Positions 5,389 through 54,719 of a stretch of 64,000 bases of DNA are shown here, one piece after another. The position numbers and the translations under genes were made by a program. The DNA comes from Berberis thunbergii. Lineage: Eukaryota; Streptophyta; Magnoliopsida; Ranunculales; Berberidaceae. The stretch lies in contig QNQO01005888.1 of the NCBI GenBank assembly GCA_003290165.1, positions 248,001 through 312,000 on the forward strand, given 5' to 3'. Numbering within the stretch: position 1 is the stretch's first letter; every line of letters begins with the position of its first letter. The notes beneath the pieces were generated by a model. The model made no database searches. It saw nothing but the letters and a program-made list of their open reading frames with translations, and was not told the DNA's origin.

Positions 5389-5696
5389 CACTACACCAAA
5401 TTAGAATTTTTGTAACAACTCCCAAAACATTATCACTTTTGAGGTGTAACAATCCACCTAACAATTTTACATAAATTCACAAACAAAGTGATATAATAAT
5501 TGTATCACCATGAAGAGTATGGTCATAAAAGTGATAATATTCATGGTGATCCAACTTATTGTATCATTTTTTTTTGTAACTGTTTCATTTTTTTTTACTA
5601 AATTTAGTTTTGACTTGAAATTATTTGGTGGATTGTAACATCTCAAAAGTGATATTGTTTTGAGAGTTGTTACAAAAGTGTGAATTTGGTGTAGTG
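5389..5696. mobile_element. CACTA-type MITE, 308 bp, TSD TAG
   Basis: Both ends read CACTACACCAAATT inwards. The first and last roughly 60 bp form an inverted repeat: TTTGTAACAACTC, then AAAACA(T/A)TATCACTTTTGAG on each side. A 3-bp duplication TAG flanks it (5386-5388, 5697-5699), as expected for CACTA elements. No coding capacity. The terminal CACTACACCAAA is shared with the two large CACTA elements at 35-55 kb, but the subterminal repeats are different. Confidence 0.92.
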
Positions 5697-32176: not shown

Positions 32177-32186
32177 GCCACAAATA

Positions 32187-33745
32187 ATGAACTTGTGCCA
32201 CAAATAGTGAAAAAGGGGATGGAGAGTATGCATTGATTATCGTAAGGTGAACTCTAATACTCGAAAGGATCACTTTCTTTTTCTTTTTATTGATTAGATG
32301 CTTGAGTGGTTAGCGGTCATCTTTACTATTGTTTCTTGGATGGATATTCTGGATACAATCAAATCCCTATTGCACAGAAGGATCCAGAAAAAAACCACAT
32401 TCACTTGTCCTTTTGGTACCTACACATATCATCGCATGCCTTTTGGGATATGCAACGCACCTGCCCATTTCAAAAATGCATGTATAGCATATTTACTAAT
32501 ATGGTGGAAAACTTTCTTGAGATCTTATGGATGATTTTCAGTATTCGGCTCATTTTTTCACCAATGCCTCAACACCTCTCACTTGTCTTAGAGCATTGCG
32601 AAAAAAATGTCTTGTTATAAATTGGGAAGTATCGTTCATGATGAAGCAGGGCATTGTTCTTGGGCACGTTGTCTCTTCAAAAGGCATTGAAGTTGACAAA
32701 GCTAAGATTAATGTCATTTAATCTCTTCCAATTCAAAAATCTGTTAAAGATGTGATATTTTTCTTAAGGCATGCTTGATTGTATCGCCGCTTCATAAAAA
32801 ATTTCTCAAAGATTGCGCGCCCTTGAACAGTCTCTTTGCCAAGGATGTTCCCTTTTTTTTTAATGCAAGTGCATATCTACATTTCTGCATCTTAATTTGA
32901 ACTAGTCTCAACTCCTATTATTCAAGCTCCTTATTGGGCCCTACCTTTTGAGGTTATGTGTGATGCCTCTAACTACGCTGTAGGTGCAGTTTATGGTAAA
33001 AAAAGTTAGCAAACTTCCTTATGTCATCTACTATGCTAGCAAGACTCTAAATGAGGCTAACCTCAATTACTCGACCACGGAGAAAGAGATATTAGCCATT
33101 GTTTATGCATTAAATAAATTTCGTTCCTATCTTATTGGAGCTAAAGTCATTGTGTACACTGACCATGCAACAATTAGATACCTTCTCAATAAGAAGGACA
33201 CCAAACCTAATCTAATCCAATAAATTATTTACTTCAAGAATTTGATCTTGAAATACAAGATAAGTTAGGTATATAAAATAAGATCATCGACTACTTGTCT
33301 AGTTTAATATCACAATCACCTACTAGTATCTTGCCCATTCAAGAGGATTTCTCAGATGAACAACTTCTCTTTGTAGATCAAGAGCCTCATTGGTATGCCG
33401 ACATTGTCAATTTTTGGAAACTAAGGAACTCCCTTCACACTGGTCTAAGCCAGATCATGACAAGTTTTTGTCTATAGTCAAGTATTATTCTTGGGATGTG
33501 CCATATTTGTACAAATACTGCCTTGACCAACTTATTAGAAAATGTGTTCCAAAAATTGAACAATTGAGCATTATCTTCTTTTACCTTGATCAAGCTTGGG
33601 TGGGTATTTCAATTCAAAGAAAATCGTGGAAGAGGTTCTTCAATCAGGTTTTTATTGGCCTACCCTTTTTCGAGATGCCCATGAGTATTGTAAAGCCTTC
33701 ACCGATGTGAACAACTGGGGCGAATAAATCGTCGTTGAAGTTTTT
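32187..33745 (+). pseudogene. Athila-like pol fragment (RT, RNase H, start of integrase), copy 1
   Basis: On the plus strand, in shifting frames: RVCIDYRK-like start (32,222), YCFLDGYSGYNQIPI (32,330-32,375) with the first catalytic Asp intact, FGTYTYHRMPFGICNAPAHF (32,415-32,470) and DDF (about 32,528-32,536). RNase H follows with [20 protein letters not shown] and [20 protein letters not shown], then [15 protein letters not shown] (33,018-33,205). The zinc-binding start of integrase is partly present (33,590-33,720). Many stops. It corresponds to copy 2 at 34.2-56.7 kb but has neither CACTA insertion, and it is embedded in the LTR of element B. Confidence 0.85.
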
Positions 33746-35478: not shown

Positions 35479-35499
35479 CACTACACCCAAAAATCCCCA

Positions 35500-35560
35500 T
35501 TAGCAACGGTTCTAAAACCGTGGGGGCAAGATGCGACCACGGTTGTAAGCCGTTGGCAGT
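35500..35560. repeat. Subterminal repeats, CACTA-1 3' end
   Basis: AGCAACGGTTCTAAAACCGTGG and CCACGGTTGTAAGCCGTTGG. These imperfect palindromes are of the kind bound by CACTA accessory proteins. Confidence 0.75.
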
Positions 35561-35639
35561 TAAAACAAATAAAAAAAATCTGTTTGTTTGCGAAAATAAT
35601 ATAATACAAAAAAAAAATTTAATTGTTTTTTGCTGCTAG

Positions 35640-36680
35640 TGCAGAATTGAAACAATCCAATTTCAAACTAATAATGCAATCAAAGAAAATACTGGAATAT
35701 GATATTGCAGTTTTAGCATTAATCAAGCATTATCAAGAGAATCACAGAAAGGGAAGACAAAGAATTCACAAGAAGGAAAGATTTATTTGATTGGAATGTA
35801 AAGGTTACAATGGTCTGATAGACTAGAATGTATTAGGCACAATTCGAGATTGCCAATCTCCTACACTTGTACAATGTGTTTACAAAAATGAATCAATGCT
35901 TTCTGTTACAGACTCCCTACTTATATCAGTTCCTTAAAGTTCCTAATGCCTTTATAATTCTCCATAAAGCACAAGACACCACTGCATTGAATATAACAAC
36001 AATGCCACAACAGTTTGTGTAACCATCCAGACTTCCAGACTTGCTAACTTGCTAACAGATAACCCCCAGATTTCCAAGCTTGCTAACAGACTTGCTAACC
36101 ACTTGCAGACTTGCTAACAGAACCTGCTAAACAACCATAATGTAAATTATAACATGAGAATATACCTGCAAGAAATGAATCCAGCTCTTCAGCTGGGCAC
36201 ATCAAACACATCACTCTTCCAATCAGCTGTATAATAAATTTTAACCCTGCACAAGCCACACCTCAAGTTAATACTCTTATTTTGCTTATTTCACTTGTGA
36301 AAAAATAAATTTTAAAGCACTTACAGCTGTCTTTGCAAGTGCCTTTGCGAGCAGCTCCAGTGCTGAAAGGCCAGAATGAACTCAGAAGATCTTCATGCTG
36401 GCAGACTTGAATGCTGGAACCACACTGCATTTTAAGGTTGCTTAAACTATATGCAAGAAATGATTTTTATATTATAATAAGCAATCATCTATTACTAGTA
36501 ATATAAACTACAGAGAACAGTAAATGTTAGTGTTGAATAACAAATAGCAAACAGTTAGAAATCTAGAAATCTAAGAAAACAAGCTTACAAAAGTTTTGCG
36601 CCAACACATCTATGAACACAAAAAGCTATAAGTCACAGAATATGCTAGTAGCTAGAAACTCAATTACCATTTCATACTCT
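35640..36680. other. CACTA-1 3' non-coding region
   Basis: No ORF of note. A cluster of short repeats of CTTGCTAACAGACTTGCTAAC lies at 36,040-36,130. Confidence 0.5.
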
Positions 36681-36689
36681 ACTTCTGCA

Positions 36690-39600
36690 GCACTCTTTTG
36701 GCCACCCCCCCCCCCCATACATACTTTGAAGCCTTTTTGTTTTTTTGCATTTTGGGCTCTAATTGCCTTCGCTTCAGGGGTGCTCTCATAGCGAACAAAC
36801 TCCTTTCAATCCTCCTCTCTTACACCATTTGGAACATGCTTCTCTTGTTCCTCAATGGTAGGATACTTATCCAAATAATTCTTCCTAAGATCTGCCTTTA
36901 ACCTTCTATAATATTCAGGCATTTTCAAATGCACACTCCTTTTCACATAATTTGGGATGTCGTATTCACGCTGCAAATAACCCATTGAGATATAAGTTGA
37001 AAATAAAATAAGACATTATGAAAATCAATGATGGTAAATCTCAACTTGAGGGCCATTCCACACATCCTCTTTGTAGTTGTCGGAGTAACATGGTGCCAGC
37101 CCTTGAATTTGATGGGCACAAGGGGTTCAACAAGCTTTCCAATGTTTTTATTGAAATTTCTAGCACCAGGTCCAACTGCTAAACCGTGGAGGTTGAACTG
37201 TATGGTCTTTTTAACTTCGCTGTCATCATTTGTAGATGTAGTGACATTAATGGTGGAGAGATTGCCGCGAGTACTATCCATTTCTATCAATGGACAATTA
37301 TACATATTAACCATTATCAAACAAAAGAATAAGAAACAACTATATACACCACATTAATAGATAATTTCCTTCCACAACATATCACCACAAATAGATTTTA
37401 TAAAGCATTGGAAAACCAATCTGAATACATAGCTACAAAGCTTCCCTTTCCCAACTCAAAAGTCAAAATAAGAAACAAAGACAAAATATTTGGTCTCAAC
37501 CGAAGAGGATGACTATAAATAGCATTAGAAATGCATCAAAAAATATTGAAGTATAGTCAATTAAATTCCAGTAAGCTCTTCAGGTTGGGGTTGTCTTCAA
37601 GATGCTTTGATACACAGTGGGAGTTTCTTTTGTTTTATCGACATTAGTGTTCAAGCCTCTTTGAGTATGTAGAACTACATGGCCACCCGTCATTTGATTG
37701 ATCTTTCGAATAAAATAGCCCCTTGCTTCTTGAGCTAAAATGAATGGATCCTCTTCCACCTTTCTTTTGTCTTTTAGCTTCAACAAGTTTACCATTTCAT
37801 GGTTCCAAATTGGGTCCACCTTATATGCATTTTTCTTATCTTCCACTTTGACCCAATCAAATAGAAGACAGTTTCTTTGAAATCTATGTTAGTCTGAGCA
37901 CAAGTATGGCTCTAACAACTCCATACAAATTGACTAGTTGGTCCTTTGGCTCTTATCTTTCTTACTAGCAACAAAATGAGCAATGGGCATCCATGGAGAC
38001 ACCACTATCTTGTGACCCAAACATTCATCCAAAGAACTTGTCGCAAATGTGAAACAATTTACACAATATTTGGATATCGGGTTGCCAAAAATTGTGGACC
38101 ATTGGCTAACCTCCAAAGTGTGGGTATTTGTTTCCCCAGCCTTCTCCAACTACATTGTAAAACAAATCATCTTAGAACTGAAATCTGAAAAAAAATTATA
38201 TATGTATATATATATGAATAAATACACATTATAAAAACTCATTACACAACCAAGGAATAAAATCTGTAGCTTTCCTCAACATTTTTTCTTGACCCTTTTT
38301 TTACTTTGTGTAGCCAACTCCATGCAATATACAATGTATTTCTGCACAATTACCATATTATCATAATTCTATATTTCTAGTTATAAAAAAAGACTAAAAT
38401 ATTGTATATCTTACTCTTCCCAATCACTCGAATCAGCAAGTGCATTGAAACTCATCTTCGAGCTTGTTTAAATTGTACATTATTTAGCATATAGTTTTTC
38501 CTTTATCCAATGGCTTTTCATCGGCATACTCATCATTTACATCATGCCACTCCTCTTGACTGTGTTTGTAAGTTTCAAATCGTGGCTTGTCATATACTCC
38601 ATGCAGTATGTAACAGATTCATCTACAAGGTATGATTCTGTTATTGACCCCTTCTATGTATCTGAAAATTTTAGCATAGTCTTTGTATCGTTTCATTAAC
38701 CTATCAATCATAAATAAAATGATAAATTAGTATATAATATAATAAGATAACGTGATGACGTGCCACTAAAATTAGAAAAATTATTTACCGCTCAAGGGAT
38801 ACATCCATCGATATCGAACTGGACCACCAAGCATCGCTTCCTCGGTTAGATGAGCCATGCAATACACACTTATAACAAAGAATGAAGGCAGAAGCTTCTT
38901 TTCAAGGACACACATTGCCTCAATCACACCTTTGTGTGCCAACTGAAGATCTGTTTTGTTGATTACTTTAGCACATAAGATATTAAAGAATAAGTTAATT
39001 CTTTGAATAGCAATTCTTAAATCTTTATTTCTTCTTGTCATGAAAAACATGTCTAAGCAAAACTGTAAGTAAATGTTGCATAATGACATGGTAATCATGT
39101 GACTTCAGTCCTCTTAGCTCCAGGGGATTCGCCAAGAACGCAATTACTCAACTTTGGATGAAAATCCACTCGGCAATTTCAACTCTTTTAGTGTATTCAT
39201 AAATAATTTTTTTCTTTCTTGGTCAAGGCAAATGATGCTTTTGGCATTGAAGTTTTTCCCATTTCATTGTCATGGCTCAACCAATATCTCTTATGAGTTT
39301 CCATGTCTTCCATATCTTTTCGAGCATTCTCACCATCCTTTGTTTCTTAGAGACATTCAACAATATGTTCAATAAGTGTTCAATAACATTCTTTCAGCAT
39401 GCATCACATCAAATATTATGTCGTAGCTCAACAAACTTCCAGTACGGCAAATCAAATGAAATAGACCTTCTAGACCACGGTGGCGCAATGTTATTGATTG
39501 GTTCATCATTGACGTTATCATTATCAACCATATTCTTGCGCTTTTGCCACTACCCTACCTTGTTGTAGAACTACCTTCCAAAATTTCCACTATCCTTCGT

Positions 39601-41166
39601 TCACACTTCTCCGCAGATAATCGTCGTGGAGCACGACGATGTTCAAACATCTTTGTTGAATCCCTTGTCATCTCTAAACTTGTGTTTTGTAGGTAAAAAC
39701 GTCGATGGCCTCCTATAGCATATCTTCCTGACTGTTTGAAAGACGTTCAGATTCTACATCATCACACAAATAGGGCATGCATTATAACCATGAACATTAC
39801 AACCAGCTAGAGTCCCATAAGCAGAAAATCCATGGATACCCAAAAAAACATTGCTTTCAACCGAAATTGCTTTTAGTACACACATCCCAAATTGAAACAC
39901 CATCTGCTCACAATTCCTTCAACTCTTCTACTAATGGCTCCAGGTAAACATCAATATTCTTTCCGGGTGCTTTTGGCCCTGATATTAACAAGGTTAACAA
40001 ACAAACTCCTTTTCATGCATAAAGAATGTGGAAGATTCAAAGGTGCTATTATTATTGCCAACACTATAAGCATTACTTAGATTTCCCCGTGGGTTAAAAC
40101 ATCAGTCGATATTGCAGAGTCTCATATTCCTACTATCAGAGGCAAAACTCTGGCCATCTCATATTTGTTTAAAGTCCATTGTGCTGAATCACATGGATGT
40201 CTCATCAAATTCCCATCTGAACAAGCATCTTTGTGCGAAGTCATTGGCTGTCACCATCCACGGTATGCTAAAAATCTTTTCAACTTGGGAATCAATGGAA
40301 AATACTTTACAACCTTTTAGCTTCTTTCCTGTATACCTTGCCGGAGCGTTGTCATCGACATCCACATAAACCTATACCTACCAGAACCACATTTTGGACA
40401 AGCAACCAGACCTCATATTATTTCCAATACAGTATGCATCCATTGCACATGCATGTATTGTCTTACATTCCATCCCCATATCTTTTAATTGTGTTTTTCA
40501 TGTTTGGTAGTTTCTGGCAAATTACAATCATCCGGCAATAAGGTTTTTAGCCATTTTATTAACATCGTCACACTATACCACTCCAACTAAAACGAGTCTT
40601 GAAATTTTGCAATTCAATAATGGTGGACAACATGGTCTTATCCTTAGGACACCCATTGTACAAAGGCACAATCGCTTTTTCCTTATACTTTGATACTTCT
40701 TTTCATAATTGTCTCAAGTTCACAAGAAAGTCTAGACCACCTTCTGGATTACCGCCAAAACATTCTTCGACGGTGTCATTCAAGTCATTTATCCCATCAT
40801 CAGCCTCCACAGTTTGCATGTTGAGGAATACATCATCAACTAGCTCGCTCATCCTAGGATATTCAAAGGCATCATCAAGTTCAACCACTTCTGTCATAGG
40901 TACACCAATCACATGCTTGTTTATATTCTCTCCATGATGTATCCACGTGACATAATTGGTATCAATGCCATGGCTTAAAAATGAACACCTATGTCGTCAA
41001 CACTAATGTTTCCCCTCGAGTTCCTACATCGAACACATGGGCAAGGAAAAAGACTCTCTCCATTTGCATTATCCTCAACAAACTTTTGGAATTGTCTAAC
41101 GCCGTTTATATACATTGCACTTCCCCGTTTGTTCATCCATGACTTATCTAAAGGAATTGTTGACAT
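36690..41166 (-). pseudogene. CACTA-1 transposase (TNPD-like), decayed
   Basis: Read on the minus strand. MSTIPLDKSWMNKRGS followed by YINGVRQF and FPCPCVRCRN (41,166-41,010) is the transposase-associated domain. FRYPRM-like spacer and KEKAIVPLYNGCP follow. SLCMKRSLFVNLVN, IDVYLEPLVEELKEL (40,020-39,915) and KYFPLIPKLKRFL (40,300-40,260) belong to the Transposase_21 core. KKLLPSFFVISVYCMAHLTE and LGGPVRYRWMYP (38,920-38,790) form DUF4218. EEDPFILAQEARGYF (about 37,757-37,713) is DUF4216. IQFNLHGLAVGPGARNF and KGWHHVTPTTTKR (37,210-37,060), then VKRSVHLKMPEYYRRLKADL (about 36,945-36,890), form the plant Ptta/En/Spm C-terminal domain. Stops and frameshifts occur in most domains, and a C run of about 13 lies at 36,703-36,716. 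It is not functional as read. The protein would bind the ends and catalyse cut-and-paste transposition. Confidence 0.9.
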
Positions 41167-41229
41167 TTCTACACAAAAAAAAATTAAAAGATTAACTTTA
41201 GTCATTGACCAAAGGAATCTAAATTGCTA

Positions 41230-44200
41230 AATTCTTAAAATCATTGACCAATCTAATGAACTTCAATTCATCCAGTTGTGCTGTTGTATTTGTTATGGTA
41301 CCCTATACAATGTTTCATTGACCTTCTTTCTACATTCCCAATCCAACTCAATTACTTGAGTTACATTGGATCTCCTATCCAAACTAATTGTTTCTAAAAT
41401 ACCACAATCATGCTTATTGCTGATCTAGAAAAAAACAAATATATAAGACATATAAAATAAGAATTCATACAACCCATAAGAGTGCAAATAAAAGGAAGAT
41501 CGTTCTAGGATTTTAGCATATAAAACAAAGAACTAGATATCAAAAACCAAGAAAGAAAGGCAGTTTAACATCAATTACAGGATGCTTGAAATGGCAGGGA
41601 CGCAAATAAGAAATAGAATGAAGGAAAAAAGAAAAACCCTTGACTATGAATCAATCCAAGATGCACTGAACAATGAATAGGATCAAGTTTCCAGCTCAAT
41701 AATGTTGACGAGACATAGATGACATAATTACTAATAATGGCAGGACTCCACTAACATTCAATCTTTGAGCTGCGTTAACATTTGTATGTGAATCATATAG
41801 CCAGAGTATATCTAGTGTCATTAATTATGCACATTCCAGTTTTACTATTTGAGTAATCCTTTGGGGGTCAAATAATTTTGTACAGTCAACTAATTTTGTC
41901 ACTTCCCCCCTATCCAAGGTCACTCAACTAATTTTGTACAGTTTCAATGCTTCATCAGATTAATGGTAATTATTTGCCTTCCTGATTGGCTTTCAGACCT
42001 AGATTGCAGAAAACAACTTCCATTCACAAAATGTTTTCCAAGATCTAACTTCACCATAAGTTGAAAAGTGAAATGGCATCATCATAGTATAGCAGTAGTG
42101 ACAATAATGGCATACTATGCTTCCTCTTATAGTCGAAGTAGAGGCAATCTAATGATGATAAATTAAATTGTAAGAAACCACAAAATCCAAAGAGTTGAGT
42201 ACTCACGAGCAAGAACTTCTGTTTCTTTATCAAGCTTCCTCGTGTTCAAAGTAGTGCCACTGGAGCAGCCTTGTTTGTTCCTGCTGTAGCTGGAAGATAG
42301 ATAAAGCAACATTATCATTGGGAATCCCATGTCAAGATAATGAGATATTCAAGAAACCACGATGTTCTTCCAAAAAGAAGAATCATTGGTCTAGCACCAA
42401 CTTGAATGTACAGTTAACTCTTTCGAGCAGATTTGATCTTTGTCAACTACATGGTAAATATAACAAAAAATATCCTCACTTCTTTTGCATATTAAAGTGT
42501 CCAGCATAAAAATGCATTACAGCACTAAGCTAAACAAGTTAAGATTTGGTCATTAGACATGACCGCTGTCACCAACATATAGCTCCAATTCAACAAAAGA
42601 CCACTTGAGAGATGCTTCAGTTGATTAGAATAATTGGACAGATAAATGATATGACACTGACCAGTGATTAAAATGTATAAATTTGTGGCATACAATTTGA
42701 GATAGCAAAATTTAATATTTCTAAGTGAAAACGATTGACTGGAAACAATTAAAAGTTGAAAATCAAATAGAGTGAATGAAATCCATTAGCATCAACAAAA
42801 CAGAATTTGTGGACCACATACATATAAACATTTTGTTTTAAAATGCACATTACAAGTTAAAATTATCATTAAAGCTTCCTTGTAGGAGCAAATCTAGTCC
42901 AGAGACTAAACAACCAAAGGAAAGTGTAAAATTTGGTGGATGATACATACAATTCGCAATGCTAACTTGTTGGCAGATACATGAAAGCCTGAAAGTCATC
43001 GTACAAGTGAAGGAATATGAAACTAGTTTATATATTTATTGTTGTCAATGTCACTTATTATTTAAGTACAAACATGAGAAGCATCCTTGACTGTGAAAGC
43101 CTCCCTAATTCAGTTATCTATTAGTTCAACTACATACACACTGTTGCGATCAACAATTGGAAGAAACATATATATATACTCAATCGGTTGTTTGGGTTTT
43201 CTATAGAGTTAATAATAGCAGAGATGAAAAGTGTTTCATTAAAATGTGAAAAATGCAAGGTTGGTAGATCAAATAAAAAAGAAATCATTATCCTACCATG
43301 CATGCTCATATGCAAACAGTGGAAACTAAACAAAATATATATATATATATATATATAAGAATGGTGCCCAAAAAGAAAATTCCATGAGAAAAACAATCCA
43401 TAAGTGCCTAAAAGAAATGCCACAAGCACTCAAGTGTGTACACCTAAGAGCATCTCGCGAAGCTCAAAAGCTTGACAACTGTTAGAGCTTTGAGAGAAAA
43501 TTTTCATGCTACAAAGGAAAGCCTAAAACTCAATGGGCCTGAGCTTTCAACATAAACCATTGCTAGATAAGGGAATGGACTGGACAAGACAATCAAGAGT
43601 TGTGTGCAAAAAGAACTGTTCTAGGTGTCTAGCTCAAAGGATTACTCAAATAGTACAAAACTGGTTATTTGACCCCAAAGGTTGATTTTGATTCAATTTT
43701 TGCATATAAATCTTTGAGCTGCGCTAACATTTGTATGTAAATCAATATAGCAATGACTTAATTCTACTCTTAATCTATATTCCTGAGATGTATTACCTGG
43801 TTTCAAATTATATCAAGAATTTCATACAAAAATTAAAGATTCAAAAAATTAAATTATATCAGGAATTTATCAGGCATACGGTTTTGAGCCCTAGAGATTC
43901 AAACCCTAATTTCAAAAACCTCTAAATAAAACCTACAGATTCAAAAAACAATTAAGGAACCTAGAGATTCAAAACTCTAAATAAAATACTCTACATTCAG
44001 GAACCCTAATTTCATCAAAAATAAAACAAAAGAGAGAGAGAGTACATGTACGAGAGAATGGTTGCAGTGGCTGATCGATTCTACAATGGTTTGGAGGTTG
44101 AAGACGTTGAGTAAGGAGGGAAGACCAGGGAAGGAGGGGAGGAGGGAAGTCGAGGGAGGGAGCAGGGGAAGTCGAGTGGAGGAGAGTCGATGGAGGGAGC

Positions 44201-44330
44201 AGGGAAGGAGAGGGTCGATGTCGATGTCGAGTGGAGGGAGCAGGTTTGTGGAGGGGAGGGAAGGTTTGTCGATGGAAGTCGAGTGGAGGGAAGGTCAAGC
44301 GCCAAAATAGCCCGCCCAATTTTTTTCAGC
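41230..44330. other. CACTA-1 5' region
   Basis: Mostly non-coding on both strands, apart from the MBF1-like exon described separately. A segment near 41,760-41,810 (TTTGAGCTGCGTTAACATTTG) is repeated near 43,713-43,760. The part at 43,970-44,320 is homologous to 45,370-45,750 of CACTA-2, reversed, and looks like a shared 5' leader. Confidence 0.55.
42207..42283 (-). pseudogene. Captured exon of MBF1 (multiprotein bridging factor 1)
   Basis: On the minus strand, between an AG acceptor (CTACAG) and a GT donor (GTGAGT), 77 nt encode AGTNKAA and, after a one-base shift, SSGTTLNTRKLDKETEVLA. This matches the well-conserved MBF1 stretch (AGTNKAASS..SLNTRKLDEDTENLA). Both splice sites are retained, so the piece came from genomic DNA. 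It is on the same strand as the transposase. It is only one exon and cannot encode a working coactivator. Confidence 0.72.
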
Positions 44331-44337
44331 TTTTAAT

Positions 44338-44612
44338 GTAGCCACGGTTTTGAGCCGTTGCTACAATAGCCACGGGTTTGAACCGTTGCTAAAATTTTTT
44401 TTGCAACGGTTTTGAGCCGTTGCTAATAATACCCACGATTTTGAGCCGTTGCTACTAATAGCCACGGTTTTTTAGCCGTGCCAAATATACCAACGGTTTT
44501 AAGCCGTGGCCAGGTTTTTTTTACCCACGGTTTTAAGCCGTTGGTACTTATAGCTACGGTTTATGTCCGTGGCAAATAAACCAACGGTTTAGAACCATGG
44601 CAGCTCGGCGTA
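44338..44612. repeat. Subterminal repeats, CACTA-1 5' end
   Basis: About a dozen imperfect copies of GCCACGGTTTTGAGCCGTTGC, each nearly palindromic (ACGG...CCGT), spaced 20-35 bp. Confidence 0.88.
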
Positions 44613-44640
44613 GCTAAATTGGCCTTTTGGTGTAGTGATT

Positions 44641-44971
44641 TGCACAAGAGGATCTAGAAAAAACTACATTCACTTTCATTTTTGTACCTACATATATTGT
44701 CGCATGCCTTTTGGGTTATGCAATGCTGCCGCGACATTTCAAAGATGCATGTCTAGCATATTTACTGATATGGTGGAAAATTTTCTTGAGATCTTTAAGG
44801 ATGATTTTTCAGTATCGGCTCATCTTTTGACCAACGCCTACATCAACTCTCACTTTTCTTAGAGCATTGCGGAAAAATGTCTTATTATTTATTGGGAAGT
44901 GTCATTCATGATGAAGCAAGGAATTTTCCTTGGGCATGTTGTCTCTTCAAAAGGCATTGAAGTGGACCAAG
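44641..44971 (+). pseudogene. Athila-like pol, copy 2, part 2 (RT core) between the two CACTAs
   Basis: CRMPFGLCNAAATFQRCMSS, IFTDMVENFLEI and FKDDFSVSAHL continue the reverse transcriptase exactly where it stops at 35,478. The catalytic DD pair is kept. The piece ends at the CACTA-2 target AAG (44969-44971). Confidence 0.88.
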
Positions 44972-45008
44972 CACTACACCAAAGGCCAGTTTAGCTACGC
45001 CGAGCTGG

Positions 45009-45310
45009 ACACGGTTTTAAACCGTTGGTTTAGTTGCCACGGCTTAAAAGATCTTAAGCTAATACATGGGCACCAACGGCTTAAAACCGTGGAAAAAGAA
45101 TCTACGCAATGGGCTTAAAATCGATTGCTTATTAGGCCACGACAAATATCGTGGCGTATACCTAGCAATGGGCCACCAAAACGTGGGCTGACTCAGTAGC
45201 AACTGCCTTAAAACCGGTGTAGTAGTCAGTAGCAACGGTCTTAACCCATGCGGTAATAGTAGAAACAGCATGTAAAACCGATTGCAAGAAAAAACTGGCC
45301 TAATTAGTAG
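45009..45310. repeat. Subterminal repeats, CACTA-2 5' end
   Basis: Copies of ACGGTTTTAAACCGTTGG, CAACGGCTTAAAACCGTGG and decayed versions between 45,009 and about 45,320. Confidence 0.85.
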
Positions 45311-47207
45311 GCAACGGCTCCAAAACATGTATTGCTGGGTAAGCCCTAAAAAAGCTGAAAACAACTAAATTTGGGTGGAGCAATATTTTGGCACTCGACT
45401 TCAACCATTCCCCTCCCATCGGACCTTCCCCACACTCGACTTCCAACTCTCCCTGACCTCCCTCGACTTCCCTACTCCTTCCCTCGAGCTTGCCCTCCTC
45501 GCCTCCTCCCTGGTTTCCCTCCCTTACTCGGCGTCCTTCAACCTCCAAACCATTTGCAAAGATCGGAATCAGCGACTGCAACCTCAAAACCATTCTCTTG
45601 CCGTTAGGTACTCTCATCTCTCTCCTTGTTTTCTTTTTGATGAAATTAGGGTTCTTGAATCTAGAGTTTTTTTATTTAGAGGTTATGAATCTCTTGGGTT
45701 CCTGAATTGTTTTTTGAATCTAATAGGTTTATTTAGAGTTTTTTGAAATTAGGGTTTGTATCTGGAATTTGACGTTATTAAAGCTGATTTCAACTTGTAA
45801 TTCATAGATCGAGTTTGTAGTTCACAAGTTTCAATATGGATAAGAACCCTTAAAAACCACGAGGGGTTGCTAGAATAAGACAATGTTGCAGGTGATGAAT
45901 TAGCAGTGGGAGAGAAGTAGATTTTGAGGTCCTTGACTGGGACTATGTGTAGATCCAGTAGCCCTGGGGCTTGGTGTAATTAGGTTTTATCTCCATTGTA
46001 TCAATTGCATTTTCATGATTGGGCAAAGGTAAACAAAATCATATTTCAATGAGATTTGTGTTTCACCTTAGTTGTTTGAAATTCACAGTGAGTATGACTT
46101 GTTCATCCTTTGAAAAGTTAATTTTGCTACAATTAGATGGTGGTCGACAAGTTTCGTTCAGTCAAGTAAAGGAGAAAAACCAAGTAAAAATGTTTCTTAT
46201 AGGCCTTTTCGGTTAGGTTGTGTGTTTTCACCTACTTGGTTTTGTATGAAGCGTGGGGACTGGAAATACTATAAGGTTACTTGAATCTATTCATTTCTGG
46301 CTCAAGGTTTTAGCTAGGTTGAACCTCTTACTTAAAATTGGAGTCTCTTTCCTTTCCTTGTAGGAGAATTTTAATTATGTTGGTTGGTTATGATATTTAG
46401 AAGGGAATTCACATACTTACGTGGAACAGTTGTATTTAGTATGTTATATGGTACATGACATGGTACGTCGGACCTAATTTTGAACTTGCATGGTAGATAG
46501 TCAAATGTAGTTAGGACCTCAAGTGCCACCATTTTCTCAATTTGTTCATCCATTCTCATGATTCCAACCAACATATAAAGGAGTAGATATTCTTCTGAGT
46601 ATGAATGAGTACTACTCAACTCTTCCACCCTGTAGTAGTCTGAGTGTAACATCATATGAACATTCTAACTTGTAAAACACTTTGTTGGGAATCCAGGGTC
46701 TTAAGTTTGAACCTAGATTTAGATTTCTGCAATAAGTTTTTAGTGTGTGATGACTCGCACCATGGAAAATCTCTAACCAACCAATGGACTATAAACTTTG
46801 TCAATATGGGCAACTGGTATTACATCTTAAATTAATCTCTTATATATCAAACTGTTATCGCTTGTAAATGACTTTCCAATGAAAAGGCCATAAATGGTTT
46901 TCTTTCCTTGAAATATTATTTTGTTATTATCATGTCCAAGAGCTTATTTCTTTGAACTATCACCTTTAATTAGAAAATTTGAAGGTGATGACAACATTCA
47001 TGCTCATAGAAAAGTAATTGCTAACAAAATAATTGCTACACAACGAGCAAAATCAAACTTAATTGACATGAGAATCGGTATATTTGACAAGGATTCAATG
47101 TTTATTTTTTTTATGCTTTCCATTGCTATGTAGTGTGATTTTTGAATTTTATTCTTACCTTGGTGGATTTCTCAACAGAGATTGACTTTCCTTATGCTTC
47201 AAATTCA

Positions 47208-47398
47208 GGATTGAGGTGAAACTTTACAAGAGTGATCCAAAAGGAGACATGATGGGGGATTTGGACGTTGGTGATTTCTTCGTTATGGTGTAAAAATCAT
47301 GTGGAACTTGATGATTGATAGTTACAACTATGTTGGAAGCAATGTAATGATGGCAGCAAAAGAGGAGCTGAGTAAAATACACTACGGACACGTGATTG
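47208..47398 (+). pseudogene. Unidentified captured exon-like fragment
   Basis: Between an AG acceptor and a GT donor (AAG|GTAACT): IEVKLYKSDPKGDMMGDLDV then, after a stop and frameshift, AAKEELSKIHYGHVIVHFK. It looks like coding DNA, but I do not recognise the family. Confidence 0.4.
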
Positions 47399-47496
47399 TT
47401 CATTTTAAGGTAACTAGCTGAAGCTTAGTGCAAGATCTATAGACTTAAATTATGTTTGAGAACAAATTTTCAATTTTATGTCTGTATTTACTACAG

Positions 47497-47567
47497 TGAC
47501 CTTACTCAGAATCAACTCACTGGTGAGATTCCAAGGCTAATCTATTGGAATGAAGTCTTCAATATCT
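47497..47567 (+). pseudogene. Captured LRR exon of an ERECTA-family receptor kinase
   Basis: The exon between CTACAG and GTGAGT encodes DLTQNQLTGEIPRLIYWNEV, the ERECTA/ERL leucine-rich repeat that reads GEIPRLIYWNEVLQYL. ERECTA genes have 72-nt LRR exons; this one is 71 nt, with one base lost after GAAGTC. Splice sites are preserved, pointing to capture of genomic DNA. A single LRR exon has no receptor function. Confidence 0.75.
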
Positions 47568-48298
47568 GTGAGTATTCATCCATCACTACTAGTAGCTCTT
47601 AAACTGGTTTTCTTGTTTAACTGAAATATTACTGTTAGTTTGATCTTTAGTAGTCTTTTTATGCTAAAAGATACGTATTTTCATTCTTATACAACCAATT
47701 CCCAAAATATGACAGAGAAACATAATTCCTTATGTTGCAAACTCCATTTTGCAATTGCTGACTTGTAATTACCATGTATTGATATATACAAGTTATAATT
47801 ATCATATAGGTTGATTAGAACTATATGAAAGAAAGGTTTAGTTGTGAGTGCAATTACTGAACATTGTAGGCATTTCATTGACTTTATTTGCTTGTTGACC
47901 ATTAGTATTCAATGATTTCATTATTTGGAAGAACTTGCAATAATGATTTGCCAAGAATTAATCAGCTTATATCTTGATGTGGAAAGTGTAGAAAGTGTGG
48001 TTGTAGTGCAAGGAAGTTGTATTGATATGTGAAGGAAGGAAGTTTCCATTGCGTGGGCATATCACATATCTCCTTGGTCTATATAAATCCATCTGTTTGA
48101 GTTGGCTTCTAATTATTATTCCCTGTTAAGTCTTCTGCTTGACCACTTTGTTTTTCTCCAAAGTTCAAACAGCTAATTGTAAGTGAATGTTTATTCTTTC
48201 TTGTGAAGTTGAGTTTCCTAATTTCTAAAATTGATGAGTTGTATACTTGTTTTGCTAATTTCGGACTCTTCAGGCTGATGCTGTTGTTTTTTATGCAG

Positions 48299-48912
48299 GA
48301 GCGAGGATGCGCGTCGAGCAGGCTTGCAGCGCACCTACATACTTAACTATCTATTGTTACAAGACGACGATGAATCTGATTTATTTACCTCAGATATTGA
48401 TGACGATGATGAGATTGGAACCATATTTGGTAAGTCATGGATGTCATTTGGTCAAAGGGAACAAGGTCATGCTATGGAATGTTGTGTTGCTATTTTTGAT
48501 GGACATTCAGGTCGTCTTGTTGCAGATTACTTGCAGAGGCATCTTTTTGACAATATCTTAGACGAGGTACTTGCTTTTGACTTGAAGCTTGAAGCTTTCC
48601 TCTTTTTTTGGTTGTTGTTGTTTTAAAAGTAAAAAGTGGCTCCTTATTAACACCACTAACAAGGTTTTGGTTTAACTATTTTGCTATCAGTACATGAACC
48701 TTTCATAACATATTTGAAAATTAAAATGGATCACTGTTTTGATGTTATCACCACATTTGTATCATGACTAGCCCAATCTATGGACAAATACTGAGAAAGC
48801 AATCAAGAGGGCATATATGAAAATAAATGAAGAAATTCTGGACAGAGTTGTTGCTTCCCGTGGAGGGTCGACAACAGTTACAAACAATGATAGTTGTTGC
48901 TTCACGGGCTGT
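48299..48912 (+). pseudogene. Captured fragment of a protein phosphatase 2C
   Basis: The first exon (48299-48567, AG|...|GT) encodes an acidic stretch DDDESDLFTSDIDDDDEIG, then CCVAIFDGHSGRLVADYLQ and RHLFDNILDE, the PP2C motif with the metal-binding DGH. After an intron, KAIKRAYMKINEEILDRVVA and SRGGSTTV (48,790-48,880) continue into the conserved GGST motif, then the homology ends. PP2Cs remove phosphate from Ser/Thr in signalling. The catalytic C-terminal half is absent. Confidence 0.75.
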
Positions 48913-49305
48913 AGTTCGTTGGTCATGTTCAGTTCTTGACAATGGATTTTTATGTTTCAAATCTAGTAAATGTCTTTGAAGTGTTCCTTCCACAACTTCT
49001 TCTATACCCCATTGAATAGAGAGGCTGCAGCCTTGATGATGCGTGATAAAACTACATTTGACCAAAGAGTGAAAGGTTGTGTTCGTATATCTTCTTTGAT
49101 TATAAATGTTTTGCGTGCTAATTTGATATGATTGTAAATGTTTTTATAGATCTACTTTATTACTCAAATCGAATAAGTTTTTCAAGTTAAAATATTTGCA
49201 ACATTGATTCTACTTGCCTTCTACTGATGTTGAGAAATATTTGGCGAATTGCGCTTTTTTTATTTATTTATTTTAATCTTGTGGCGCTTTCCTTTTTTTC
49301 TGAAA

Positions 49306-50560
49306 TTTCACTCATGGGAGAAAACAATCGATCAATTTAAGCTAGGAGAAGGAGTAATGCCAGCGAGCTTCAAAGTACTTCATGATCCTGTTAGAAATAA
49401 TGAGACCTTATTTGCAGATTTGGTGAAAGTGCAATAGGAAGAGTTGCTCATGTTGACTCTAGATTTTGGTGGATTATTTGCTTCGTGCATACACAAAATC
49501 TACAGGAGACTCTTCCTTAGCTGATTTACCAGCTTGTCAGAAGGGCATGCGTCTCATTTTGAGTTTATGCCTATCAGAACAATTCGATACATTTCCTACT
49601 TTGCTATGTGCTGATGGTTGTTCCATGATTGATCGGTAGAATGGTGAGTTTCTCTTATCATCTTGTAATGTTCACTAGTCGTAGGTGTGTATGCTTTATG
49701 TTTTTAACTCTGCAATTTGAAATTTTGAAATAGATGAATTATTGACTCTTAAAGGCAATCTTCAATAACTTAGTTTCCTCAAGCTGAGATGTAAACCCTT
49801 ACTAATATGTTTTGTCTCTTTACTGCTTTAGGGTGTTTATGGGTATCCTGTTGAAATACAAGCTCTTTTCTTCATGGCTTTAAGATGCGCACTACCTTTA
49901 CTCAAGCAAGATGAAGAGGGTAAAGAGTTTGTGGAGAGAATCGTCAAACGCCTTCATTAACTAAGCTATCACATGAGAACTTATTTTTGACTTGACCTAA
50001 AGCAACTTAACGATATTTATCGGTTTTAAAACTGAGGAGTACTCTCACACTGCAGTCAACAAGTTTAATGTCATGCCTGATTCTCTTTTAGATTGGGTAT
50101 TTGATTTCATGCCGACACATGGTGGCTACTTCATTAGAAATGTTATTCCTGCAAGAATGGATTTCCCCTGGTTTTGCTTAGCTAACTTTATTGCAATTCT
50201 TTCATCCTTGGCAACCCCTGAGCAGTCTGCAGTTATTATGGATCCTATTGAGTCGCGCTGGGAAGAATTAGTTGGAGAAATGCCACTTAAGATTTGCTAT
50301 CCAGCCATAGAAAGTCATGAATGGCGGATTGTTACAGGCTGCAATCCAAAAAACACTAGATGGGGTTACCACAATGGAGGGTCTTGGCCAGGTAAGGAAT
50401 TTGATTATCGATATTACAAGTACTCAAATAGTTAACCATATGATCCCAAGTCATGACATTTGATCTATTTATTTTAGAATATTGATTATAAATGAGATTT
50501 TGCGTTTTTTTTTCCCTTGGACAGTTCTATTATGGCTCCTCAATTTGCTACTCCCTCCTT
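49306..50560 (+). pseudogene. Captured part of an alkaline/neutral invertase (GH100)
   Basis: Exon 1 (to 49643): [32 protein letters not shown], then in another frame [20 protein letters not shown] and ADGCSMIDR. Intron 49644-49831. Exon 2 (49832-50391): [20 protein letters not shown], later [60 protein letters not shown] and [13 protein letters not shown]. Intron to 50524, then VLLWLL as in GH100. The enzyme splits sucrose into glucose and fructose. Here there are premature stops (for example at 49436 and in the LKQLNDIYR region) and the N-terminal half is missing. Intron positions fit the family, so genomic DNA was captured. Confidence 0.88.
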
Positions 50561-51101
50561 TATCAGTAAACACTGGAGATAATCCGGCGATAACTGAAAG
50601 GAAAGGGATCATCCGAACACTGCAGCACAGAGCGCGTCCCAGGCAGGGTGCGCTGCAGTTTCAGCGTGCTCTGCATTGCAGACAGAGTGTGATTCAACGT
50701 GTTTGTTGTACGTGTTGTTTCTGGCTGCAACGGGTTTCAGCGTGCCCGGTTAGCACACCGGTTTTGAGCTATGGTTGAGGTCTACTGGGAGGCTTGCGGG
50801 TTTTTCTGCACGCTGCTGCGAAACAGAACTTGCGTTGGTGTTGTCCGAGTTGCTGGGAGCTAAATGCTTGGGCTGACTTCATTTTGTTATAATTTTATAT
50901 AACTTATTTTGTTTTGTTATCAATATGAAAGCTACAATGAGTGACATTTCCTTCTATCAATATTTATTGAGTTGTTTTTGTTATTGTTCAAAGTATACTT
51001 CTTTGTTTAGAGTCTTTCTGCATTATCACCACTAACATTTTACTAATGTGTCTTATGCATCACTTACAATAAGACAATGACATCTTAGATGGTTTATGCA
51101 G

Positions 51102-51256
51102 ATCCTGATTTGGGATCTGAAGATAACTTCGGGATTTGGAAGATTGATGATACAGACAACGGTTTTTATACGCAACCCTTTAGGATCAAATATGAAAGGC
51201 AGGATGTCCTGTTATCTGTTATGGTCTCTTTTGATCTCTCTCTTGGAAAACATGAG
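51102..51256 (+). pseudogene. Unidentified captured exon-like fragment
   Basis: Clean AG acceptor and GT donor around an open 154-nt exon encoding PDLGSEDNFGIWKI...FRIKYERQDVLLSVMVSF...SLGKHE. The frame is intact. Family not recognised. Confidence 0.45.
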
Positions 51257-51539
51257 GTACATTTTTTTCTTAAACACTTCCAGTGATCTATCTAGTCATT
51301 AGAAGCTCGTGTCTTCCACTTCCTGTTCTACATAGTAAAGCCATAGTAAGCAGATTCCTTCTCCTTGTTTAGGATGTGGAAATGGGAAAGTATAAGTATT
51401 TATGAAGTGTTGGTACTATCGTATTTTGAAAATATACAATTTGGCATAATACAGAGTCCAGATATCAACTATCAATGAGATGCTAAAATTGGCATGGACA
51501 CTTTTCAATGCTAATGCTTACTATCATCTCAAGATTTCA

Positions 51540-51653
51540 GGGAATCTGCAAATCCTTTTGTAGAACAAGCAGTGCAATACGCAGAAGAAACTGCACATGC
51601 AACACTAACCAACAATGATAAAAAGATGTACTACAGAAGCTGCTCTTGCAAGG
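51540..51653 (+). pseudogene. Unidentified captured exon-like fragment
   Basis: Between TTTCAG and GGTATT: ESANPFVEQAVQYAEETAHA and TLTNNDKKMYYR. Helical, coding-like; the family is not recognised. Confidence 0.35.
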
Positions 51654-52270
51654 TATTGCTGGTGTTTTTGTTCATTTGTTTAAGATTATGAACTTCGAGT
51701 ATCCTACTCTTTCTACTGTCTCTTTTATTTCAATTTTTTGCAAATGACTTTCTGGATTGGCTATTTTTCTTACAATCCACCATAACTAATATTGCTTATT
51801 AAATTTTAAGCCTTAAGCTCATATAGCACTTGTCTCTAAAGAATCTGAGAACTCATGTCTTATTCTCATTTATGGAAACTAATCTTTAAAATGCAGTTGC
51901 TCGGCATTGTAGTTCATATTCTATCCCTTTTGCAAATTTCATTCCATTTACCTATATTAGTATTTAGTATGTGAGTATAGCTCTAGAACAATTTAGTGCG
52001 AATACAGGAGGGAGAAAATACGGCAGTCACTATCTATAGTGGTCATTTTGGTGAAGTGGCGATCATTTTGGTGAAGTCACTATCTATATATGGTGCTTTA
52101 TGCTTCTAAGGTTCATTATCCTTGCATACATGTAAGTGGTGCAGCTTTTCTGTAGCACCGTAGCACCGTGTAGTTGGTGATAGTGTGTTTCTGCCATTAA
52201 CATTATCTGTCAGATTTTTAATGTTGTTTTATTATCAGTTAGTAACTTGTATCGTTTCATGTGACTGCAG

Positions 52271-52432
52271 CTGAAGAAACCTTCCCATCCAACTCGTGGC
52301 GTACCAGTTGCTATTAGTTGCTTAGCATCTTTGTTGAAAGAACCATTGGTTAGATCCTCTTTTGTAAAAGCAGATGAGGTGAAGCTGCTAGTTCCGTTGA
52401 TTTCTCCAGCATCTACTCAGCAATCTATCCAG
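52271..52432 (+). pseudogene. Captured exon of V-type ATPase subunit H
   Basis: The exon between ACTGCAG and GTGATT encodes [40 protein letters not shown] and PASTQQSIQ, a close match to the conserved middle of VHA-H (CLA.LL+[26 protein letters not shown]). The exon frame is open and both splice sites are kept. Subunit H couples the V1 and Vo parts of the proton pump. Only this exon is recognisable. Confidence 0.85.
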
Positions 52433-52609
52433 GTGATTTGGTCTTATTCACAATTAAGAGTTATGCTTTGAAAAGATTGGCTTCTCAAGGTGAATCTTAT
52501 TTGCAATATCCCAAAAGGTGAGTCTAATGTATTTGGGAATCTCCTTCTAGGATTATGATTTTTTTACCTCTAATATTTATTCAATCATGTTTATTTTCGG
52601 AACATGCAG

Positions 52610-52705
52610 AAACCTACTGCCACCCAAGCTAAAAAATTTCCAGTAGCCTCCAAAAAGAAAGATGAGTCAAGTGATGACTCTGAAAGTGAATCTGATGAAG
52701 ACGAG
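52610..52705 (+). pseudogene. Captured acidic exon, nucleolin-like
   Basis: A 96-nt exon between TGCAG and GTACAT: KPTATQAKKFPVASKKKDES followed by SDDSESESDEDE. The lysine-then-acidic pattern is typical of nucleolin-like N-terminal repeats, but low complexity makes the assignment weak. Confidence 0.45.
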
Positions 52706-53763
52706 GTACATGTTTAGTATTCTTTGCTTCAAAGCCTTACTTGTTGGATTGGCGTGGCTAAAATGTATATTTGTTTCAAACCAGCCATTACAACTGATTG
52801 AAAGTTTATGTTGTCTTTTGCAATAAAGAGTCTTATCGAAAAGGTGGTAAAAGCCAGGGACATAATATATTTGTTAAAGGTTTTGATACCCCCCTTGGCC
52901 ATGATGAGGTAAAAATCCATACAGAGTTGATTTTATATTAAAAATCCATACAGAGTTGACTCGTGAAGCTCTTTTCTTGATTTTGAACCATTTACAGCTA
53001 ATATTTTATATAAATAACAGTTAATAAAAGCTTAAAGATTAGTGATATGTTTATTGCAAACAAAGTCAAAGTGGCCTCTTTTCCTGAGCTCATGAACTTC
53101 AGCATTGGAGGTGTACACGTACTTAAAAATACGGCTTTATGGGAAGATCTGTTTTGTGACTTGTCTATGCCTTGATTAGTCCTTTCAGACATTGTCTTGG
53201 TACAATCATTTTCTCATAGACTTGTCTGCAGAGTTAATCTCTTAAAGACTTAAACTAGTTGGTACTTGTGTAGAAAATAAAGCAAAGAAAACTAAAGGAA
53301 AACAGAGTGAAAGTAAGTGGAACGACCCAAGTATAAAGGACCTAGGCATAGTTCCGTAGGCAGTATTTGAAAAAGTGAATAAGGAAGATGTTTTAAAGAG
53401 TGAAAGGAGGTGATAGGAAAGCCATGAAAAGTTGAAATATAATTGACAACAAAGGCTGTTATGGGCAATTTCTAAAACAGAGGACAATAATATATGTGCC
53501 TTCCAAGAGTTTTACTAGAATGAATCTTCTTCATTACGCCATTTCGTTCAGTCTCAACTATTCATATTGATCAAAATGATCTAGAAAGTTTCAAGATTCG
53601 CCAACTTGGGTTCCAGTTGGTAGGGTTATTAGTATTATAAATTGAGGAGTGCATGGTTTCTATTCAAATCAGCAAGAGTAGTACTCAGACTGTCAGGCGA
53701 CACTTCCACACATCATTTTTAGCTAACATTTGCTGTGTAGAACTAGTATAAGCAAGAACAGCA

Positions 53764-54000
53764 ATGGGGCAAAAGAAATCCTTCTCTATCTTAAGCATCT
53801 TCAAGTCTAGGAAGTCTCGCGATAGGTATGGTATGGGATGGGATGAAGCTGTTAATGTGAGAAAAGTACATCCTAGCGATGAAGACAGGGGGCATTGGGT
53901 AGCTAAACCAAACATTGACAGGAAAGCTTCAGCCTTCATTGCTAAATTCTATGAAAGTCGTGTGTCAGATCCTGATCGACAAACTGTTCCACCTATGTAA
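53764..54000 (+). CDS. Small 78-residue ORF, conserved-plant-protein-like
   Basis: An uninterrupted ORF starts MGQKKSFSILSIFKSRKSRD and contains VRKVHPSDEDRGHWVAKPNI, DRKASAFIAKFYESRVSDPD and RQTVPPM. I recall short uncharacterised plant proteins with a similar basic N-terminus and an IDRKASAFIAKFYE-type C-terminus, but cannot verify it here. It is the only host-like piece in CACTA-2 that is complete from ATG to stop. It lies near the 3' end of the element, on its sense strand. Function unknown. It could be expressed from an element transcript or be a recent, silent passenger. Confidence 0.55.
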   Translation: MGQKKSFSILSIFKSRKSRDRYGMGWDEAVNVRKVHPSDEDRGHWVAKPNIDRKASAFIAKFYESRVSDPDRQTVPPM

Positions 54001-54324
54001 ACTGTAATATAGGAGTCCCATTTGTTATGCACTTTTATTGTAATTTGCTTGTAAGTGTGCTCACTAGTTTGTGAATTACAATAATGAAAAAATAATACAA
54101 GATTTGTTCACATTCAATCTTAGTTTTTTTGTATTACAGCATATATGGCCTTTTCAATCTATCTATCCTCTCCTCCCGCTTCTTCCTATCTGGATTTGAA
54201 GTACTAATGAACAATGAACAAAATAGATTCAAATACTTTCCTGATTGTCAAGTTAATAACATGTACAGAAGTAGGTTCGTTGTTACATTTAAAAAAAAAT
54301 TTAAAATTTTTTTTTAAAATTTTG

Positions 54325-54700
54325 CCACTGCTTAAAACCGTGGCTAATTATTGCAACAGCTAAAAACCGTGGCTACCTTTCCACGGCTTATAACCTTGGC
54401 TAGTACTGGCCACGGCTTAAAACCGTTGCTAAAGCTATTGCAACGGCTTAGAACCGTGGCCATAACTTGCAACGGTTTTAAGTCGTTGCTACTCCTGGCC
54501 ACGGCTTAGAACCGTGGCTAAGATTGTTGCAACGGTTTATAACCGTGGCTAAATCATCAACCGTCCTCAAGATAAAACCATTGCTAATATTTTTGCCACG
54601 ATTTTTAGCCGTTACTAGGGATTTAGCGACGCCTCTACAGCCCACGGCTCTAAGCAATGACAATGGGTTACCCCCACGGTTTAGAACCGTTGCTAATGGG
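54325..54700. repeat. Subterminal repeats, CACTA-2 3' end
   Basis: About fifteen copies of CCACGGCTTAAAACCGTTGC-like imperfect palindromes in both polarities, spaced 20-30 bp. This end has many more copies than the matching end of CACTA-1. Confidence 0.88.
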
Positions 54701-54719
54701 TAATTTTGGTGTAGTGAAG

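Follow-up and report, generated by a model that had tools for sequence, protein, structure and literature searches.

Pack-CACTA transposons, which carry captured pieces of host genes between CACTA ends, are an already known kind of element, represented by Tgm-Express1 of soybean and by the Pack-TYPE survey (PMC8903248). As excerpts of PMC1947982 describe it, Tgm-Express1 is a 5.7 kb CACTA at the wp locus that lies inside a host-gene intron, holds five gene fragments and has been demonstrated to produce chimeric transcripts. For wheat 3B, some CACTA-captured genes are reported to be under purifying selection (PMC4290129, in excerpts). Here we describe element R, found in a 64,000-nucleotide stretch of Berberis thunbergii DNA (the window, to which coordinates refer: positions 248,001 to 312,000 of the forward strand of contig QNQO01005888.1, assembly GCA_003290165.1). 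We are confident that R is a non-autonomous Pack-CACTA with captured host exons and introns, adjoined by a transposase-bearing relative, L.

The terminal inverted repeats of R are perfect over 12 bp and are bounded by an exact 3-bp target site duplication (TSD), AAG; these ends, the duplication and the size of the element agree with an earlier, sequence-only reading of the window. Within the window the 12-mer end occurs seven times with at most one mismatch (0.31 expected), and the subterminal unit gives 33 matches, on both strands, at the ends of R and L (0.03 expected). No transposase family was matched by Pfam in any of the six frames of R at E ≤ 0.1, so the earlier claim that no transposase is present holds for R, though its neighbour L has a decayed one. 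R is inserted in a decayed gypsy element whose RNase H and integrase domains score above the cut-off and whose reverse transcriptase scores below it. A gypsy relative in the same window serves as a natural empty site: it is 86-90% identical and runs continuously through the insertion points of both R and L. The window also holds a miniature CACTA-like element (5389-5696, 308 bp, TSD TAG) with the same 12-bp ends as R and near-palindromic arms (52 of 60 end bases matching).

Between its ends R holds pieces of at least six nameable plant gene families, where the sequence-only reading had counted at least four recognisable unrelated host genes: an ERECTA-type kinase, a PP2C, a neutral invertase, a FAM135-type protein, V-ATPase subunit H and a DUF761 open reading frame (ORF) (Table 1). 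In a Pfam scan of the three sense frames the neutral invertase match was strong, and those to V-ATPase subunit H and DUF761 lay below the cut-offs; solved structures matched by R are CINV1 (E down to 6e-71), V-ATPase subunit H and ERL2. The invertase had been recognised at 49306, and its identity stands, but the piece is larger than first described. The leucine-rich repeat (LRR) piece, 23 residues long, gave a single significant stretch in 4 of 59 listed rows, all of them ERL1 or ERL2, which supports the ERECTA-type exon called at 47497; in sum over these 59 rows, other LRR kinases outscore ERL1/ERL2 by way of many weak repeats. A chimeric protein query from R named PP2C 28/58-type and FAM135-type proteins: PP2C exon 1 was matched by 107 of 151 proteins (E ≤ 1), exon 2 by 104 and the FAM135 piece by 21 (best 67% over 51 residues), and the two exons together bear out the PP2C proposed at 48299. 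The top protein match of the PP2C comes from Macleaya and the next ones from other orders; searched directly against solved structures, the piece returned nothing better than E 0.11, with kinesin ranked first. The small ORF noted as complete at 53764 can now be identified as DUF761. Queried alone it only just reaches the Pfam cut-off; its protein is 81% identical to one from Macleaya cordata, and all 13 organisms named among its 14 best matches presumably belong to the Ranunculales. Of three exon-like pieces earlier left nameless, the one at 51102-51256 proves to be FAM135-type, and those at 47209 and 51534 still have no relative in the protein search. The nucleolin label given to the acidic piece at 52610-52705 is unsupported, as it has neither a Pfam match nor a protein match at E ≤ 10.

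The exon edges placed in R have AG at 10 of 10 acceptors and GT at 9 of 9 donors, which is a consistency check only, because the edges were placed with splice signals in view. All six named pieces lie on the plus strand of R, in line with the sense-strand arrangement noted earlier. Three antisense frames gave no Pfam match, a limited control because the sense scan itself saw three of the six families and missed PP2C, LRR and FAM135. Interrupted gap repair with template switching, in which every event would insert a short stretch from some unrelated gene, is an explanation of the capture to which we give just under an even chance: the pieces are short, stem from unrelated genes and include introns. 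However, donor junctions are comparable for one piece only, and a shared strand for all six named pieces would be surprising by chance (two-sided p 0.03, assuming independence).

That one piece is V-ATPase subunit H, proposed earlier from the exon at 52271 and supported by Pfam, by solved structures and by a resident gene. The resident gene (contig C938) is 81% identical to R at 51815-52059 and 86% at 52094-52515; the match covers exon and intron alike and the exon edges are equal, while about 370 bp of intron present in C938 are missing in R and in the copy on contig C4 (junction 52059/52094). Because the resident gene matches the captured piece including its introns, the DNA was captured, and the earlier claim that introns were kept and genomic DNA was taken up is borne out here. 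A second resident V-ATPase subunit H gene is present (C714/C8832).

A search of the plant's own genome (2.24 Gb) with the 5' end of R, in which the best 40 of 716 candidates were scored, places the element in a family. Both ends and matching triplets were found in nine of ten fetched copies (two copies each with CAG, TCA and GAG, and one each with AAG, CCT and TGT); the reading TCA for C10001 and C1205 assumes that the first element base has changed, and in C135 the 3' end was not located. The ends at 44972 and 54716 thus occur together, with triplets, in other copies, contrary to what would have refuted the sequence-only reading. Flanks are 98.8-100% identical within the pairs R/C98, C4/C4782, C10001/C1205 and C264/C7051, which are therefore haplotigs or recent duplicates, leaving six sites including that of R. 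The copy of R on C98 is haplotig-like (98.2% over 9793 columns), and the 29.4-kb stretch at 34716-64000, both CACTAs included, is 98.6% identical there, as a haplotig or a recent duplication. End-to-end R-type copies occupy three of the six sites (R, C4, C10001), with relatives at the other three. R has been mobilised as a unit: C4/C4782 (CAG) and C10001/C1205 (TCA) are two more sites with end-to-end sister copies. R, C4, C1205, C6045 and C93, presumed independent with the pairings C6045/C118 and C93/C5815 assumed, show 94.9-96.7% identity over the best aligned 5.9-9.7 kb. That the pieces are instead resident genes, or were brought by a nested Helitron or Mutator element and not by the CACTA, is very improbable in the face of pieces enclosed by CACTA ends, with 3-bp duplications, at several sites; Helitrons and Pack-MULEs do carry similar pieces (PMC1947982 and PMC4290129, in excerpts), and no search aimed at Helitron or Mutator ends was made.

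The relatives share the blocks of R in different combinations and carry other gene pieces, as judged by sequence comparison. A genome search with the interior of R (best 38 of 5893 candidates scored, haplotigs not removed) listed 12 contigs for which block 45770-47157 was the sole match and 18 matched only by parts from 51719 onward; the match list is no proof that a block is absent, because C37, one of the 12, holds further blocks. The invertase block is absent from C264 and C7051 and the PP2C block from C37; beyond about 50884 R no longer follows C37 and C264. Block 47173-47475 of R is common to C131 and C135, and C4, C4782, C10001 and C1205 have about 245 bp at position 6735 of R (window 51706) that R is without. 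Other host domains in sense frames are Ras and Arm, present in both C131 and C135, Tim17 in C131, and TPX2 and ABC transporter in C135; the matches of C131 to Na/H exchanger and ribosomal L15, and of C264 to starch synthase, are weak. In a Pfam scan of the first 10 kb of C37, invertase was the only domain. The stretch 3' of the invertase piece, 50570-50884, is GC-rich by eye and is common to C37 and, in part, to C264.

Such mosaics bring in the Catoni/Gisby model, in which a transposition uses the outer ends of two neighbouring CACTAs and so captures the DNA that separates them. Two CACTAs lie 334 bp apart here, R looks composite (its left part, to about 50884, is common to C37 and C264, and its right part is listed without the left for the 18 contigs just mentioned), and fusion of neighbouring elements is described in the excerpts of PMC8903248. 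Yet no internal CACTA end survived testing, several pieces are single exons, and L and R are in opposite orientation, whereas the local hAT and PIF pairs of PMC8903248 are reported to point mostly the same way; moreover, with only 38 of 5893 candidates scored, blocks not listed may exist. We consider neighbour fusion possible, at rather less than an even chance. One candidate for a fusion scar, 52041-52058, resembles a CACTA 3' end with a score reached by 17 of 1000 shuffles; it was rejected, as the resident V-ATPase subunit H intron is nearly the same there.

L lies 334 bp to the left of R in the same gypsy. Its minus strand has matches to tnp2 (PF02992), PF13963 and PF13960, spread over three frames; a Pfam scan of its plus strand gave nothing at E ≤ 0.1. 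Three segments align between the two elements: R 1-248 at 75% identity, R 486-792 at 83% and the last 51 columns at 90%. A block not in R, at about 47157/47173, occurs in C135, C264, C37 and partly C131 and is 94.9% identical to L over 647 columns; the Transposase_24 match within it (C135, L025 4051-4353) is weak and below the curated cut-off, and its peptide matches L. From this L-like block, kept in four relatives, we infer that the family of R derives from L-like elements.

On this account of R as a Pack-CACTA, an L-type CACTA would have lost its coding region and taken in host DNA piece by piece, and family members may have reached different block sets through deletions, recombination or the fusion of adjacent copies. 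The transposase of an intact relative would act on the shared ends and move the whole element. Transcription might start in the 5' region of R and the captured exons be spliced into chimeric RNAs, as the example of soybean Tgm-Express1 makes plausible; the sequence-only reading suggested that small RNAs against the donor genes could also arise. Several points weigh against this account. The transposase of L is decayed, because its matches lie in three frames; no intact tnp2-type transposase turned up, and no search aimed at one was made. In five copies, the exon of V-ATPase subunit H carries 7-8 silent and 0-4 coding differences from the C938 gene; at 81-86% identity and with mainly silent exon differences, the C938 gene is unlikely to be the direct donor, and it is probably a paralogue of the true donor, itself a close paralogue. 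Four resident PP2C genes (C524, C828, C11, C751) have an intron at the position seen in R, but the intron sequence differs, so they are paralogues and not donors; the comparison covered these four and left out C1373. Introns compared with candidate donors thus match for V-ATPase subunit H and differ for PP2C, and a matching resident gene was found for only one of the six named pieces.

The ERECTA exon, 72 bp long, is open in all nine other haplotypes found and is 1 bp shorter in R; six of 11 haplotypes, R not among them, keep the large invertase exon open; the DUF761 ORF is open in 7 of 8 haplotypes, from four sites. DUF761 has 8 coding to 10 silent changes, against 29 to 6 in four other exons (Fisher p 0.0098), the latter in keeping with an absence of selection (p 0.89). 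When the mutation spectrum of the flanks is used, DUF761 gives p 0.0013, uncorrected for five exons. The silent excess (10 against 3.2 expected) outweighs the coding deficit (8 against 12.3 expected), and therefore the signal could stem from chance or from exchange with another gene. At 32 columns that are otherwise invariant, the DUF761 protein has 6 private changes, and its 13 relatives have 0-6 at 32-36, with gaps counted and the highest relative (Aquilegia) a truncated protein. The open reading frames and silent excess of DUF761 may be a hint of function. It seems unlikely that the family carries one complete host gene, DUF761, staying functional beside decaying fragments; were it so, the transposon lineage would amplify a working DUF761 gene, and the rest would be exchangeable exon blocks.

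Table 1. Features of R and its surroundings (window coordinates)
Feature	Position	Strand	Basis or remark
Pack-CACTA element R	44972..54716	+	9745 bp; AAG flanks at 44969-44971 and 54717-54719
R 5' terminal inverted repeat CACTACACCAAA	44972..44983	+	12 bp
R 5' subterminal repeat units	45009..45092	.	repeat search
Stretch of R 83% identical to 5' region of L	45457..45763	+	alignment
Exon-like piece with splice signals, no protein match	47209..47409	+	protein search, splice signals
ERECTA/ERL-type LRR exon	47497..47567	+	structure-protein matches, splice signals
PP2C exon 1	48299..48566	+	protein search, splice signals
PP2C exon 2	48772..48882	+	homology apparently stops within exon (end inferred)
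Neutral invertase pieces, introns kept	49300..50391	+	CINV1 residues about 152-452; stops and frameshifts in R
Possible start of a further invertase exon	50525..50565	+	suggested by AG edge and reading only
FAM135-type exon	51102..51256	+	protein search, splice signals
Exon-like piece with splice signals, no protein match	51534..51652	+	protein search, splice signals
Captured V-ATPase subunit H stretch	51815..52515	+	exon 52271-52432 and flanking intron
Acidic exon-like piece	52610..52705	+	splice signals; nucleolin origin not confirmed
Complete DUF761-family ORF, 78 aa	53764..54000	+	Pfam, protein search
R 3' subterminal repeat units	54318..54696	.	repeat search
R 3' terminal inverted repeat	54705..54716	-	reverse complement of CACTACACCAAA
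Neighbouring CACTA L	35479..44637	-	9159 bp; TSD ATT; tnp2-type transposase, decayed, with associated domains
Gypsy relative without interruption at either insertion point (natural empty site)	32182..33735	+	sequence comparison

At the start of the window, 11-1408 consists of tandem arrays with periods of 69, 138, 207 and 412 bp.

Among the matches listed in the literature on CACTA capture there was no earlier description of the family of R, which is no proof of absence; the excerpts of PMC3742203 mention CACTA, capture and Ranunculales together, in unrelated contexts. Going by the excerpted descriptions, R and Tgm-Express1 are alike in being CACTAs whose cargo, exons together with introns, comes from several unrelated host genes; R differs in its 9.7 kb, its six nameable families and its position in a gypsy element, and is known here from DNA alone. 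With the Pack-CACTA and Pack-TYPE elements excerpted from PMC8903248 it shares non-autonomy, CACTA ends and coding DNA from several loci; it differs from them in its host, a plant of the Ranunculales, in the decayed transposase-bearing relative 334 bp away and in blocks that are differently combined among relatives. The wheat 3B case, again in excerpts, is likewise one of CACTA capture, in another host and with other gene families, and the DUF761 signal of R concerns a single ORF. What is added here to a known kind of element is the family view: block combinations, an adjoining transposase-bearing relative and a resident gene whose introns match. Because these coexist, capture mechanisms are testable within one genome, and the family could allow the order of gene capture to be worked out.

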